Of a DNA stretch of 42,325 bases, positions 8,112 through 12,633 are shown in pieces. The stretch is from Chloroflexota bacterium. Lineage in GTDB: Bacteria; Chloroflexota; Limnocylindria; Limnocylindrales; CSP1-4. The position numbers and the translations under genes are program-made. Every line of letters starts with the position of its first letter. Position 1 is the stretch's first letter. The notes beneath the pieces were generated by a model. It had not been told where the DNA came from and searched no databases. It saw only the letters and a list, made by a program, of their open reading frames with translations. The DNA lies in NCBI GenBank assembly GCA_003141955.1, contig PLOC01000020.1, forward strand, positions 90,287-132,611, in the 5' to 3' direction.

Positions 8112-8264
8112 CTGCTCTTCTCCTCCTTGTGCCGATCGCCCGAGGGATGTGACGAACCTCGGTGCCGGGGGACCCAGCCGGCCGGAGGAGTATAGGCCCG
8201 CGGCAGGTGGGCCAGCCGCTCGGGCCCGCCGGTGCCGCCGACCCGTCGCCGTCGGCCATTCGGC

Positions 8265-8270
8265 TATCCT
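8265..8270 (+). promoter_or_regulatory. Putative -10 box of hflX (near-leaderless)
   Basis: TATCCT ends 8 nt before the hflX ATG at 8279, which would put the transcription start at or within a few bases of the start codon. No good -35 is visible at 16-18 nt upstream, and no Shine-Dalgarno sequence precedes the ATG. It matches the arrangement seen before other genes in this window. Confidence 0.4.
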
Positions 8271-8278
8271 GCCCACTG

Positions 8279-9622
8279 ATGACCAAAGATATGATCGATC
8301 TGACCGCGCCGGTGGAGCGCGCCTTTCTCGTCGCCGTCGACACCGGCGACGATCCCGGCTGGACGGCCGAGGAGTCGATCGCAGAGCTGGCCAGCCTGGC
8401 CGACACCGCCGGCGCCGAGGTCGTGGGCGCGGAGTGGCAGAACCGCCGCCATGTCGACCCCAACTTCTACGTCGGCAAAGGCAAGGCCGACGAGCTCGTG
8501 GCTGCGAAGTCGGAGACCGGCTACACGATCCTGATCACCGACGACGAGCTTTCGCCGGCCCAGCAGCGCGCCCTCGAGGAAGCCGTCAAGACAAAGGTGA
8601 TCGACCGATCGCGCCTCATACTCGACATCTTCGCCCTGCACGCCCAGACGCACGAAGGCCGCCTCCAGGTCGAGCTGGCCCAGCTCGAATACCAGCTGCC
8701 GCGCCTGACTCGGATGTGGACCCACCTCTCGCGCACTGGTGGCGGCATCGGCACCAGAGGCCCCGGCGAGTCCCAGCTCGAGACGGACCGGCGGCTCGTG
8801 CGCGAACGGATCAAGAAGCTCAAGGAGCGAGTCGACCAGGTCGCCGAGCAGCGTCGCACGGCCACGCGCGCCCGCGACCGGCGGCTCATCCCGACGGTCG
8901 CCATCGTCGGCTATACCAACGCCGGCAAGTCGACCCTGTTGAACTCGCTCGTCGGCTCCGAGGTCGTAAAGGCCGAGGACCGGCTCTTCGCGACAGTCGA
9001 CCCCACCTCGCGCCAGGTCAAGCTGGGCGAGGGCCAGACCGCGATCGTCACCGACACCGTGGGCTTCATCCACAAGCTGCCCCACCAGCTCATCGACGCG
9101 TTCCGCGCCACCCTCGAGGAGGTCACGCGCGCCGACGTGCTGCTCGAGATCGTCGACGCCTCCGACCGCCACTTCGCCGAGCACCGGGCCACGGTCCAGA
9201 CCGTCCTCGAGGAGCTGGGCGCCGGCAACAAGCCGCGCCTGGTGGCGTTCAACAAGGCGGATCTGATCGAGGCGGCTGCCCGCGACGCCGAAACCCCCGG
9301 GCCGGCGATCGCAGGCACGGTCCTGATCTCGGCCGTGACCGGATATGGCCTCGAGACGTTGAAGGCGGAGCTCTCCGCGCTCCTCGCGTCGCTCTGGGTG
9401 GACGTGGACGTGGCTATCCCGTACCGCGCCGGCGAACTGATCGCCCGCATCCGCGAGCGCGGCACGGTGGATCTCGACTATCGCTCCTTCGACGTGCGCG
9501 TTCGGGGCCGCGTCAGCCCTCCGCTGGCGGGCGAGCTTGAGGCCGTCGCGGCGCGATACCGCGAATCGCTCCGCGACGACAACGGGGCCAGCGGCGACGG
9601 CGGCACTTCCGTCGACGCCTGA
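8279..9622 (+). CDS. hflX: Ribosome-associated GTPase HflX
   Basis: HflX is a GTPase that binds the 50S subunit and splits or rescues stalled ribosomes. The product is 447 residues from ATG 8279. The N-terminal HflX domain shows NFYVGKGKADEL and the signature SRTGGGIGTRGPGESQLETDRR without its last residue, followed by a basic coiled coil. The G domain has G1 GYTNAGKS (211-218), G3 DTVGF (about 259-263) and G4 NKAD. The frame extends upstream to 8162, but only the 8279 start begins near the conserved domain and sits behind a -10-like box. A strong hairpin directly follows the stop codon. Confidence 0.94.
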   Translation: MTKDMIDLTAPVERAFLVAVDTGDDPGWTAEESIAELASLADTAGAEVVGAEWQNRRHVDPNFYVGKGKADELVAAKSETGYTILITDDELSPAQQRALEEAVKTKVIDRSRLILDIFALHAQTHEGRLQVELAQLEYQLPRLTRMWTHLSRTGGGIGTRGPGESQLETDRRLVRERIKKLKERVDQVAEQRRTATRARDRRLIPTVAIVGYTNAGKSTLLNSLVGSEVVKAEDRLFATVDPTSRQVKLGEGQTAIVTDTVGFIHKLPHQLIDAFRATLEEVTRADVLLEIVDASDRHFAEHRATVQTVLEELGAGNKPRLVAFNKADLIEAAARDAETPGPAIAGTVLISAVTGYGLETLKAELSALLASLWVDVDVAIPYRAGELIARIRERGTVDLDYRSFDVRVRGRVSPPLAGELEAVAARYRESLRDDNGASGDGGTSVDA

Positions 9623-9643: not shown

Positions 9644-10255
9644 CGAGCCCTGCACGCGGCCCGGTGGGGTGGGGGAGCATTAGCACACACGTTCTCACTC
9701 GTCCGCATTAGGGGTTCGCGCTCTACTACCCGTGTTGGCGGGAAGTGGACAAGTGCCAAAACTGTCTTCCCCGGCGCCCAAACTAGTGGATAAGCCACTT
9801 CTCGCGGATGGGCCCGGGACCTATTGTCTGTCTTGCCCGGAGGGGCCAGCGAGATCGACACCGACTCAGCGGTTTCAACAGAAACGGTGACCGATCTACG
9901 TGAAAGACCAGCAGCCCGCAAGGGTTTCTGGGCCGGATCGCAGACCGTAGCCGCGGAAGTCGAAATGTAGAGGAGCCGGTGGCAGTTCCGGCAGTGGCCG
10001 GAGCGCAGGTCGCCGTTCGAGCGAGAAGTCCTCGGACCTCTTGCTTGCGGTGGTCAAAGCGGCCGGTACGCGCGAAACCGCAGTCCGATCGAAGCGGTTC
10101 CTCTGGGCGCTTCTTTGTGTCCGGCGCAATCTCGGCGGCTTGCGGGCCGCCCCTGACCCGGTGCCGGCCCAGGGCCTGCGGGCCACCCGGCCAGCAGGGT
10201 AGGGGACTCAGAGGTTATCCTCGGCGTCGATCCCATATTCGCAGCCAGGAAGTCG
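9644..10255. other. Gene-poor region carrying a promoter/RNA-like element (copy A)
   Basis: About 610 nt without a convincing protein gene; short open frames on both strands have unnatural composition. The region holds an ordered set of sites: GTGGACAAG (9745), a small hairpin AGTGG/CCACT enclosing GTGGATAAGC (9785-9799), TATTGT (9822-9827) and CCCGGAGGGGCCA (9836-9848). The same set recurs with the same spacing after the glycosyltransferase gene. Downstream is a GTTTC/GAAAC hairpin near 9872-9885. The remaining stretch to 10255 shows nothing I can name. Confidence 0.5.
9745..9848 (+). promoter_or_regulatory. Element A: candidate promoter and 5' end of a small RNA
   Basis: The order is GTGGACA (9745), GTGGATAAGC (9786-9795), a weak -35 (TTCTCG, 9799-9804), 17 nt, TATTGT (-10, 9822-9827), 8 nt, CCCGGAGGGGCCA (9836-9848). 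The predicted transcript start falls at about 9834, so the RNA would open with UGCCCGGAGGGGCCA, which can fold as GCCC-GGAG-GGGC with GGAG in the loop. No start codon follows at ribosome-binding distance, which argues against a protein leader. Copy B at 11116-11220 keeps the same geometry. Confidence 0.45.
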
Positions 10256-11050
10256 ATGCCGTCCGGCGCCCCGTCTCCGAGCCCGATCGCAGCCGTGCCC
10301 GCGAGCCCTAGCATCTGGATCATCGTCCCCACATACAACGAATGCGAGAACGTGGGCCCGATCAGCGGGGCCATCCTCGCGACCGTGCCCCAGGCGAATG
10401 TCCTCTTCGTCGACGACGGATCTCCCGACGGCACCGGCGAGCTCGCCGATCAGCTGGCCCGGCAGCACCCGAACATCGCCGTGCTGCACCGACAGGCCAA
10501 ACAGGGACTGGGACAGGCCTACGTGGCCGCCTTCCGAGACGTGCTTGCTCGCGGGGCAGACGTCGTGGTCCAGATAGACGCGGATTTCAGCCACCCGGTC
10601 AGGTTTCTGCCCGCGCTACTCGAGCCTCTGGCAGCCGATCGGGCGGACCTAGTGCTGGGTTCCCGCTACGTCAAGGGCGGGCACATCCCGCGCTGGAACC
10701 TTCTGCGGCGCCTGGTGAGCAGGGGAGGCAGCCTGTTCGCCGGGATCGTCCTGCTGATGCCCTATCGGGACCTCACCGGCGGCTACAAGGCATTCCGCGG
10801 TTCGGTGCTCCGAGCGATCGACCTCGATCGCCTGCACGCGGGCGGCTACGCCTTCCAGATCGAGACGACCTTCCAGGCGCGCCTGGCGGGCGCCCGCATC
10901 GTCGAGATTCCGATCACCTTCGAAGAGCGGCGCGCCGGCCAGTCCAAGATGAGCATGGCCATCTTCACCGAGGCCTTCCGCCTGGTGCTGGCGCTGCGCA
11001 TCAAGACGCTGCACCGCCGGCGACGCGCCCTGCCCTCTGGACCGGCATGA
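10256..11050 (+). CDS. Polyprenol-phosphate mannosyltransferase-type glycosyltransferase (GT2, DPM1-like)
   Basis: This 264-residue family 2 glycosyltransferase resembles soluble dolichol/polyprenol-phosphate mannose synthases, which load a sugar onto a lipid carrier at the cytoplasmic membrane face. Visible motifs are IIVPTYNECENV, FVDDGSPDGT, the metal-binding QIDADFSHP, LVLGSRYVKGG and GGYKAFR. The C-terminus (ITFEERRAGQSKMSMAIFTEA) is typical of the DPM1 group; there is no transmembrane tail. The ATG at 10256 follows AGGA at a short distance. It stands alone between two copies of a repeated intergenic element. The sugar and lipid acceptor are inferred from family resemblance. Confidence 0.85.
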   Translation: MPSGAPSPSPIAAVPASPSIWIIVPTYNECENVGPISGAILATVPQANVLFVDDGSPDGTGELADQLARQHPNIAVLHRQAKQGLGQAYVAAFRDVLARGADVVVQIDADFSHPVRFLPALLEPLAADRADLVLGSRYVKGGHIPRWNLLRRLVSRGGSLFAGIVLLMPYRDLTGGYKAFRGSVLRAIDLDRLHAGGYAFQIETTFQARLAGARIVEIPITFEERRAGQSKMSMAIFTEAFRLVLALRIKTLHRRRRALPSGPA

Positions 11051-11115
11051 GAACGGTCGTTCCAACCCCCCCCCTCAGCGCGTGAGCCTGTCGAGCCCGT
11101 CGGTGTGCGCAGCCC

Positions 11116-11220
11116 GTGGACAGCACCTCAGTTGGCCGCGGCGATCCTCCGAGAAACGTGGATAAGCGGGTTGGCACCCTGACCGGCGCGGGCTAGATTC
11201 GTTGGTGCCCGGAGGGGCCA
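11116..11220 (+). promoter_or_regulatory. Element B: candidate promoter and 5' end of a small RNA
   Basis: Second copy of the arrangement at 9745-9848: GTGGACA (11116), GTGGATAAGC (11158-11167), TTGGCA (-35, 11171-11176), 17 nt, TAGATT (-10, 11194-11199), 8 nt, CCCGGAGGGGCCA (11208-11220). Here the -35 and -10 are both good. Predicted start is about 11206. The downstream RNA has a CCGAT/ATCGG hairpin (11241-11256) at about the position where copy A has GTTTC/GAAAC, so structure may be kept while sequence changes. Confidence 0.5.
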
Positions 11221-11428
11221 CGAAATACCGAACGACTCGACCGATTCTCGGATCGGCCGAACGATGCGGGGTCGCGGTTCCTTCGGGCGTTCCATGTCTG
11301 TCACGATTCCGTCACCCGCAGCCCGCCGATGCGCTACGTCGGCTGGCCGTTTGGCTCCTGCGACGTTCAACGGACGGCAAGCCCCAATCGGCACTTCCGA
11401 TAAGAGAGGTTATGTCCGTTCGCAGTAT

Positions 11429-11458
11429 CTGACCCTGAGGTGGCGACCGCTCTACACT
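11429..11458 (+). promoter_or_regulatory. Promoter upstream of the truncated ATPase
   Basis: CTGACC (11429-11434), an 18-nt spacer and TACACT (11453-11458). The transcript would contain the hairpin at 11473-11494 and the ribosome-binding site GGTGAGGG before ATG 11519. This is a reading of motif spacing only. Confidence 0.4.
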
Positions 11459-11518
11459 CACGTGAGACGCGAAAGGGCGGTTTGAATCGCCCTTGATTGC
11501 GACAAACGGGGGTGAGGG

Positions 11519-11617
11519 ATGCAACTCGTCTCGTTCTCGATCGAGAATTACGGAGCATTACCAATGCGTATCGCCTTCGGACCGGTAATTGGACGAGGGC
11601 GTACGTCTCGGCGTTGA
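11519..11617 (+). pseudogene. N-terminal fragment of an AAA/OLD-type ATPase
   Basis: The short frame begins MQLVSFSIENYGAL, which looks like the opening strand of AAA/SMC-type ATPases of defence genes (M-x-LVSFSV-x-NYRSI). It has a ribosome-binding site (GGTGAGGG) and an upstream promoter, yet protein-like sequence stops after some 20-25 residues where methylase sequence on the opposite strand begins (about 11598). No Walker A follows. I read it as the stump of a gene cut by a rearrangement. The match is short, so confidence is limited. Confidence 0.4.
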
Positions 11618-12052
11618 GTTCCTGGCCGTAGTCGATCAGCTGGGCGTTCGGGTTTAGCTCACACAGGTAGGCCTGGCTGACCGAGCTCATGCCGGCGGTG
11701 CCGCAAGCGGGGTCGAGCATCGTTCGGACTGTGCCGGGCGTTTCCAGAACGTCGTTGTCCTCGATGAAGAGGAGGTCGACCAGCAGGCGCATGACTTCGC
11801 GCGGCGTGAAGTGCTCGCCGGCAGTCTCGTTGGATAGCTCGGAGAACTTGCGCAGCAGCTCTTCGTAGAGGTAGCCCATCTCCACGTTGCTGACCTTGTC
11901 CGTGTGGAGGTCCAGCTCGGTCACCTTGGAGAGGATGGGGGTACTGGAGCCTGGCGCGGTCGAGGCGGCCGACCTGGGCGTCGAAGTCGAACTTCTCGAT
12001 GACGTCGCGGGTGTCGCCGTCGAGAATGCGCTCAGCCGTCCCGCTCGAGCTG
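11598..12052 (-). pseudogene. hsdM: Type I restriction methylase HsdM fragment, frameshifted
   Basis: The sequence reads as the middle of an HsdM N6-adenine methyltransferase: an N-terminal piece with DVIEKFDFDAQVGRLDRA in one frame, then MGYLYEELLRKFSELSNETA, GEHFTPREVMRLLVDLL and the SAM-binding motif DPACGTAGM in another. The frame changes at a run of five G on the plus strand (11937-11941); removing one base would join YP to ILSK. Homology ends at GQELNAETYA (about 11598), before the NPPF catalytic motif, and the N-terminal helical domain is missing too. No hsdS or hsdR is present. It is therefore a dead remnant, abutting hicB on one side and the ATPase stump on the other. Confidence 0.82.
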
Positions 12053-12421
12053 GCTAACACGCTGGTTGCTCATCCTTAGAAGTATGCCTGTGTCGCGCGA
12101 TGTATAGCCGGAGTCGCGGATCTCTCGGACGGCATGTCGGATAGCGGCGGAGGACTTCGACTGAGCGCGTTCGGCCTCTTCTCGGGCTGCAAGGGCCTCC
12201 TCAATCGAGTCCTTCAGGGAGCCGAGCGACGACAGGTTGGGTTCGACCGTGAGATCGAAGGCGTCCTCCCCCACTCCAAGGAGCAAAGCGATCGCCTCCC
12301 TGGCCATCGACTCGACCTGGTCCAGTCGGCGCGCCTGCGAATGCACGCCAGGCAGCTCGGGAACCTCGATCGCCCACCATCGACCGGTCCTTGTCGCCGT
12401 CACACGATATTGGGTCTTCAT
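12032..12421 (-). CDS. hicB: HicB-family antitoxin
   Basis: The 129-residue product has an N-terminal HicB domain (YRVTATRTGRWWAIEVPELP, with GVHSQA and the helix LDQVESMAREAIALLLGV) and a C-terminal helix-turn-helix-like segment (SGYTSRDTGILLRMSNQRVSQLE) for DNA binding. In hicAB systems this protein neutralises HicA and represses the operon. Start ATG 12421 overlaps the hicA stop in an ATGA arrangement, so translation is coupled. Its stop lies at the very edge of the hsdM fragment, so its C-terminus could have been altered by the rearrangement, but the length and fold look complete. Confidence 0.78.
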   Translation of the reverse strand: MKTQYRVTATRTGRWWAIEVPELPGVHSQARRLDQVESMAREAIALLLGVGEDAFDLTVEPNLSSLGSLKDSIEEALAAREEAERAQSKSSAAIRHAVREIRDSGYTSRDTGILLRMSNQRVSQLERDG

Positions 12422-12633
12422 TGCCGCCACCAACCTTCACAGAGCTCGGACTCGAGCGACTTACGAATCGACTCCGCGGTCACCTCGTTGCTTTCCCGAT
12501 GCCTTGGCACGGTCACCTGGAGCTGGCCGCACCGCCACAGTTCGTGCCTGGCGCCCGGGCGAACCAACTCCCACTCGACTCCCCTATCGGCAGCCGCGCG
12601 TGCGATCTGTCGGAGGAGTCGGAGGTGCTGCAC
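12418..12633 (-). CDS. hicA: HicA-family mRNA interferase toxin
   Basis: HicA toxins are small dsRBD-fold RNases that cleave mRNA independently of translation. The 71-residue product has the core pattern: an N-terminal helix (LRLLRQIARAAADRGVEWELV), the catalytic-histidine strand (GARHELWRCG), QVTVPRH and a final helix (TAESIRKSLE). Start is GTG 12633. It comes before hicB with a 4-nt overlap, the usual toxin-first order. A promoter with a good -35 and -10 lies so close that the mRNA would begin at or next to the GTG. The pair appears intact although the flanking methylase is broken. Confidence 0.8.
   Translation of the reverse strand: MQHLRLLRQIARAAADRGVEWELVRPGARHELWRCGQLQVTVPRHRESNEVTAESIRKSLESELCEGWWRQ

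Follow-up and report, generated by a model that had tools for sequence, protein, structure and literature searches.

A clade-specific family of structured noncoding RNAs with predicted DnaA-controlled promoters in the Limnocylindria (Chloroflexota)

RsmX, RsmY and RsmZ form a protein-binding set of RNAs with a common GacA box. Like CsrB and CsrC, they are several co-regulated, partly redundant structured RNAs encoded at separate loci, and the Gac/Rsm system combines an activator box at a fixed upstream distance with a repeated loop motif and a terminator-like end. Other structured small RNAs are tied to DnaA or to the cell cycle, such as EcpR1 in Sinorhizobium and CcnA in Caulobacter, and predictions for Caulobacter score DnaA sites for individual noncoding RNAs (PMC5988900). 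Among RNAs of related shape, 6S RNA (RF00013) is a free-standing rod, and in Y RNA/YrlA a long stem made by the 5′ and 3′ ends encloses a variable interior. We analysed a window of 42,325 nt from a Chloroflexota genome (contig PLOC01000020.1). Two sites in it that flank a glycosyltransferase gene (9745-9848 and 11116-11220) are confirmed each to hold the promoter and 5′ end of a noncoding RNA gene, RNA1 at the first and RNA2 at the second. Judged by sequence comparison, the genome probably has at least three such genes, RNA1 and RNA2 among them, for structured noncoding RNAs that act in trans; the family is specific to the clade, would be regulated by DnaA and would probably bind protein.

The two sites share the arrangement GTGGATAAGC-N40-CCCGGAGGGGCC, which is exact at 9786-9847 and at 11158-11219, with a spacing of 50 in both. 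It had no match in 100 dinucleotide shuffles and does not occur elsewhere in the 2.8-Mb genome. GTGGACA precedes GTGGATAAGC by 41 nt on the RNA1 side (at 9745) and by 42 nt on the RNA2 side (at 11116), and the -10 elements are at equal offsets (TATTGT at 9822-9827 and TAGATT at 11194-11199). Together with a hexamer 17 nt ahead (TTCTCG at 9799 and TTGGCA at 11171), each forms a sigma-70-like promoter. A preliminary description of this DNA had reported the twin elements with these distances and interpreted them as two copies of a small-RNA gene with a shared regulator. The observation is confirmed and the interpretation partly supported. Small-RNA genes with a common regulator are borne out by structures that covary, by conservation across the class and by DnaA boxes in a fixed array, and copies in related genomes are abundant. 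The idea of two gene copies holds in part: the RNAs have promoter, ends and closing helix in common but differ in interior and in length (274 vs 82 nt).

The extents of RNA1 and RNA2 are defined by their relatives, in which conserved sequence follows the block as far as GGUUCCU-NN-GGGC, which is complementary to GCCCGGAGGGGCC, with a U-rich stretch after it. In predicted folds, a 13-bp closing helix joins both ends of each RNA. CCCGGAGGGGCC had been read as the start of a local 5′ hairpin; it is instead the 5′ strand of this helix and pairs with the far 3′ ends (Table 1). The closing helix outcompetes the proposed hairpin in the predicted folds, and covariation does not support the hairpin. 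RNA1 was detected in 20 of the 21 genomes of the genus and, apart from one 25-nt match, was not found in other genera. Its consensus comprises 83 pairs, with 97% of the alignment cells paired within the genus and 12 pairs showing changes on both sides. No shuffle out of 500 was as good in both-side changes, any one of five pairing measures was equalled by at most one shuffle in 500, and slid structures scored far worse. The closing helix of RNA1 is paired in 99.5% of the cells in the genus and covaries across the class. Complete copies measure 272-276 nt for RNA1 and 81-82 nt for RNA2, and the indels are not in threes; such length shifts of one or a few bases argue against coding sequences. 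Compensatory changes supporting the secondary structure were found alongside the lack of a conserved reading frame, two features expected of a structured noncoding RNA gene. The U-rich tail is a class-wide feature (49% T in the 9 nt past the stem vs 14.6% overall), and a scan for local-hairpin terminators found none because the helix runs from end to end. In RNA2, the octamer CCGAACGA flanks the apical stem on both sides; it is invariant in the genus, partly unpaired in the prediction, and a candidate protein site.

A first covariance model, built from RNA2-type copies, found members in further genera and families, most of which have the same promoter, closing helix and tail. The genomes compared are largely metagenome-assembled genomes (MAGs). 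A second model (R2) matched 35 of 301 genomes of the phylum, all of them in the class Limnocylindria, with no match in the other 266 and none in any other class; among the non-matching genomes listed, the only ones from the class were three of one family (f2). A promoter-free scan of named genomes for the closing helix and apical loop pattern returned 119 stretches, and among the 80 of these listed, all but a handful are from Chloroflexi MAGs, some labelled Candidatus Limnocylindrales. From the class we selected 99 distinct members without using the promoter, the apical motif being part of the selection pattern. Genomes carry about 1-5 paralogues at fixed places, and most members are 61-106 nt long. 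In the source genome, RNA1 and RNA2 are joined by RNA3 (contig C99, 20012-20150, minus strand; E 2.7e-14). The apical loop GMGAUNRCAUCAA is near-invariant in most short paralogues across the class, where the scaffolds around it differ; it is absent from RNA1 and RNA2, and in other genera the members beside hflX have loops of the CUUG or UUUA type in its place. Pairing is supported by 24 cells with both-side changes in the short members (vs 9.0 in shuffles) and, in the closing helix of class members, by A-U to G-C covariation with nine sequences changed on both sides. A role of GGA in attracting a CsrA-like protein or as an anti-Shine-Dalgarno sequence, proposed earlier, is not upheld: the GGA lies in the closing helix, its position reads GAA in 64 of 104 distinct class members, and the partner strand co-varies. 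An RNA that sequesters Csr/Rsm proteins is likewise unlikely, as repeated GGA in hairpin loops was not found and the GGA in the closing helix is not conserved.

The noncoding RNA family is real and apparently undescribed. No Rfam 15 family was found in the window at the gathering threshold, and relaxed thresholds gave no convincing match, either at this locus or where the RNAs lie in the loci of 19 relatives. A tRNA/tmRNA scan found none, and we found no description of the family among open-access papers. The Chloroflexi-1 RNA (RF01698) is a motif of Chloroflexus (PMC2864571) and had no match to the family described here. 6S RNA differs in length, in its long rod with a large central bubble, which is missing from our predicted folds, and in the several paralogues of the present family; its model is unmatched in 61 relatives. 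The end-to-end stem recalls Y RNA, an identity that was rejected since no TROVE/Ro protein was detected in the 61 relatives and there is no Rfam match.

Several further observations concern the distribution and variants of the family. A doubtful fourth member in the source genome (L253, G000:C123:15066-15136; E 0.45) has a box and promoter-like GTGGATAAGTGGCTTG, followed by only a short stretch. At six loci (L085, L087, L112, L139, L167 and L171) the encoded RNA has the apical loop motif twice, and some of these RNAs are about 147 nt long. Another RNA type (L064:1580-1711 in G012:C26, and L096 in G032:C19) has the same closing helix without perfect DnaA boxes and contains an inner direct repeat, CTAGTGATC, around TTTGTTTACAGG; this type possibly stands apart from the DnaA-box set as a kind of its own. 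The RNA family was not detected in f2 (G037-G055), another family of the same order with reduced genomes of ~1-1.1 Mb, which suggests a loss during genome streamlining. Matches of the promoter-free scan outside the Chloroflexota (Phytoactinopolyspora, Bradyrhizobium, Streptomyces, Lachnospiraceae and Bacteroidetes) were set aside as chance. Three RNAs of the f4 type (L159 and L165) come from contigs assigned to Steroidobacteraceae HEB_FP_1_bin.9, a bin that is probably mislabelled or contaminated.

By sequence, GTGGATAAGC is a DnaA box (TTATCCAC), and the DnaA box TTRTCCAC reads as GTGGATAA or GTGGACAA on the opposite strand. The DnaA protein of the source genome has the usual GGRDHSTVLHACDKI signature, and dnaA, dnaN and recF are adjacent; the gap between dnaA and dnaN (oriC) contains GTGGATAA twice and GTGGAGAA once. 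Tandem perfect GTGGAYAA boxes in the same direction and 8-36 nt apart occur at two places in the 2.8-Mb genome, oriC and the RNA1 promoter, and their flanks are similar (CAAAC before GTGGATAA). Upstream of the 99 class members, strict boxes reach 1.39 per 150 bp, compared with 0.0019 elsewhere in the same loci (~750-fold). Their offsets are mostly about -50 and -82 (direct) and -105 and -116 (inverted); -92 to -94 and -103 account for a few more. When degenerate boxes are allowed, the -50 site is present in all 99 and an additional upstream site in 97. The promoter boxes match those of oriC, as members of a DnaA regulon would. A site at -50, just upstream of the -35, is where an activator touching RNA polymerase is expected. 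DnaA is most likely the common regulator of the RNA genes, because the boxes match those of the genome's own oriC, including the tandem arrangement, and because of their position; a box just upstream of the -35 makes activation more likely than repression. At DnaA-regulated promoters of protein genes, the boxes also adjoin the -35; those described here differ in having boxes at up to four fixed offsets, in serving noncoding RNA genes and in extending class-wide.

In the mechanism we propose, DnaA would bind the box upstream of the -35 and activate transcription of the RNA genes. The RNAs may then act, and here the argument is weaker, as co-regulated, partly redundant protein-binding RNAs: most short paralogues would offer a protein the same near-invariant apical motif on scaffolds that differ, and RNA1 and RNA2, with genus-specific interiors bearing their own conserved unpaired segments, may be specialised members. 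The logic would be that of RsmX/Y/Z with DnaA in the place of GacA, and post-transcriptional control would be tied to replication status. The box differs accordingly (a DnaA box, the analogue of the GacA site), as does the loop (GMGAUNRCAUCAA instead of ANGGA). In contrast to EcpR1 and CcnA, DnaA would stand upstream of a whole paralogous family. Extended to the class, this becomes a regulon in which DnaA drives redundant protein-binding RNAs and replication status sets the activity of an RNA-binding protein, and thereby translation or mRNA stability; we put this forward tentatively, as a possibility rather than an expectation.

Several points weigh against this reading. The class-wide apical motif is missing from RNA1 and RNA2, which leaves promoter and closing helix as the grounds for a function in common with the short members, and the motif was used to collect the 99 members, so that its invariance among them is partly selected. 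The closing helix is partly invariant and thus uninformative on pairing at those positions. The boxes of RNA3 are imperfect (GTGGACAA upstream and GTGGAGTA at the proximal place), and the degenerate proximal box suggests that the strength of control may differ between paralogues. The L064 type combines the same closing helix with an absence of perfect boxes. Finally, the boxes could titrate DnaA instead.

Titration would make the loci control sites for DnaA of the datA/DARS kind and their transcripts by-products. As many as four boxes in a locus, set at fixed spacing, and multiple loci per genome at fixed places would suit such sites, but the -35 and -10 lie at a fixed distance from the boxes and the RNA covaries and has a conserved loop, indicating selection on the RNA itself, and we regard titration as quite improbable. 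Somewhat less improbable, yet still unlikely, is that the promoters answer to another protein whose recognition sequence resembles that of DnaA, the RNAs being otherwise as described: the DnaA sites are predicted, and some members carry GGGGATAA at -50. Against this, tandem perfect boxes occur in the genome only at the RNA1 promoter and at oriC, with similar flanks. The RNAs could also be taken for a mobile or repetitive element, resembling a miniature inverted-repeat transposable element (MITE) or a repetitive extragenic palindrome (REP), or for a cis-acting leader of the glycosyltransferase gene, as multiple copies share their ends and RNA1 ends 147 nt ahead of that gene. Such origins are extremely unlikely given the fixed neighbours of each subtype across genera, the small number of loci per genome and the RNAs' own promoters; RNA2 lies downstream of the glycosyltransferase gene, other genera carry the RNAs without it, and viral contigs hold no supported copy. 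A phage origin was rejected, as the sole match in a viral contig has neither closing-helix partner nor promoter and looks like chance.

As to what the RNAs do, they could be base-pairing small RNAs that repress mRNAs, possibly that of dnaA itself. EcpR1 is a precedent, being a conserved Hfq-independent small RNA whose loop pairs with the dnaA and gcrA mRNAs (PMC4414408), and the conserved unpaired segments would fit a feedback loop closed by DnaA control. Duplex energies between the interiors of RNA1-3 and the 5′ regions of three candidate targets (dnaA, dnaN and the glycosyltransferase gene) were, however, no better than those of shuffles, the conserved apical motif closes on itself (GAU/AUC), and little unpaired sequence remains. 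Hfq was detected in none of the 61 relatives, and an Hfq-dependent small RNA was rejected. We consider base-pairing with mRNAs rather doubtful. The RNAs might also bind RNA polymerase in the place of 6S RNA, which, by model score, is found in none of the 61 relatives, while the same search recovers the 6S RNA of control genomes; the rod-like closed shape, strong promoter and terminator-like tail would suit this role. The short length of most members, the missing bubble, the several paralogues per genome and an apical loop that is the most conserved part make it very unlikely. A DnaA-regulated, probably protein-binding family is the reading we prefer.

The family adds to a poorly studied class in which neither Hfq nor 6S RNA was found, and is an unusually clear case of DnaA boxes at fixed positions ahead of noncoding RNA genes. 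Should DnaA prove to be the regulator, an input of replication state to post-transcriptional control could be tested directly. With the covariance models and the promoter pattern, the family can be annotated in metagenomes and metatranscriptomes.

Table 1. Features of the RNA1/RNA2 locus, in positions of the window.
Feature	Position	Strand	Basis or remark
DnaA box (GTGGACAA on +) upstream of RNA1	9745..9752	-	tandem with the box at 9786
DnaA box (GTGGATAA on +) just upstream of the RNA1 -35 region	9786..9793	-	
RNA1 promoter, TTCTCG-N17-TATTGT	9799..9827	+	offsets equal in class-wide members
RNA1, structured noncoding RNA gene, 274 nt	9835..10108	+	genus conservation, compensatory changes, indels
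RNA1 closing helix, 5′ strand GCCCGGAGGGGCC	9835..9847	+	partner 10096-10108
RNA1 closing helix, 3′ strand GGTTCCTCTGGGC	10096..10108	+	predicted folds, genus pairing statistics
T-rich tail GCTTCTTTGT, terminator-like together with the RNA1 closing helix	10109..10118	+	
Near-match DnaA box (GTGGACAG on +) upstream of RNA2	11116..11123	-	
DnaA box (GTGGATAA on +) just upstream of the RNA2 -35	11158..11165	-	
RNA2 promoter, TTGGCA-N17-TAGATT	11171..11199	+	promoter scan
RNA2, structured noncoding RNA gene, 82 nt	11207..11288	+	near-invariant in genus; folds as a single closed rod
RNA2 closing helix, 5′ strand	11207..11219	+	predicted folds
RNA2 closing helix, 3′ strand GGTTCCTTCGGGC	11276..11288	+	predicted folds
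hflX, ribosome-binding GTPase; true start may be later	8162..9622	+	Pfam GTP-bdg_N/M, MMR_HSR1
Family 2 glycosyltransferase gene between RNA1 and RNA2	10256..11050	+	Pfam Glycos_transf_2

The promoter of RNA2 is the only sigma-70-like promoter found by the promoter scan. In the genus, hflX precedes the RNA1/RNA2 locus, and RNAs of the family also follow hflX in other genera; the glycosyltransferase gene did not adjoin the RNAs in any further genus examined. Subtype I has a nucleoside phosphorylase gene as its neighbour, subtype II PQQ-repeat/AhpC-type genes, and subtype III uracil phosphoribosyltransferase and related genes. Given the fixed neighbours of each subtype and a glycosyltransferase gene that lies between the RNAs in this genus only, the RNAs are independent units, neither leaders of that gene nor mobile repeats. 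Beyond RNA2, an N-6 DNA methylase gene fragment (11367-11924, minus strand; partial match to Pfam N6_Mtase) adjoins a gene for a HicB-like antitoxin (12032-12433, minus strand). A small open reading frame without a Pfam match (12418-12633, minus strand) might encode the HicA partner of the HicB-like gene.
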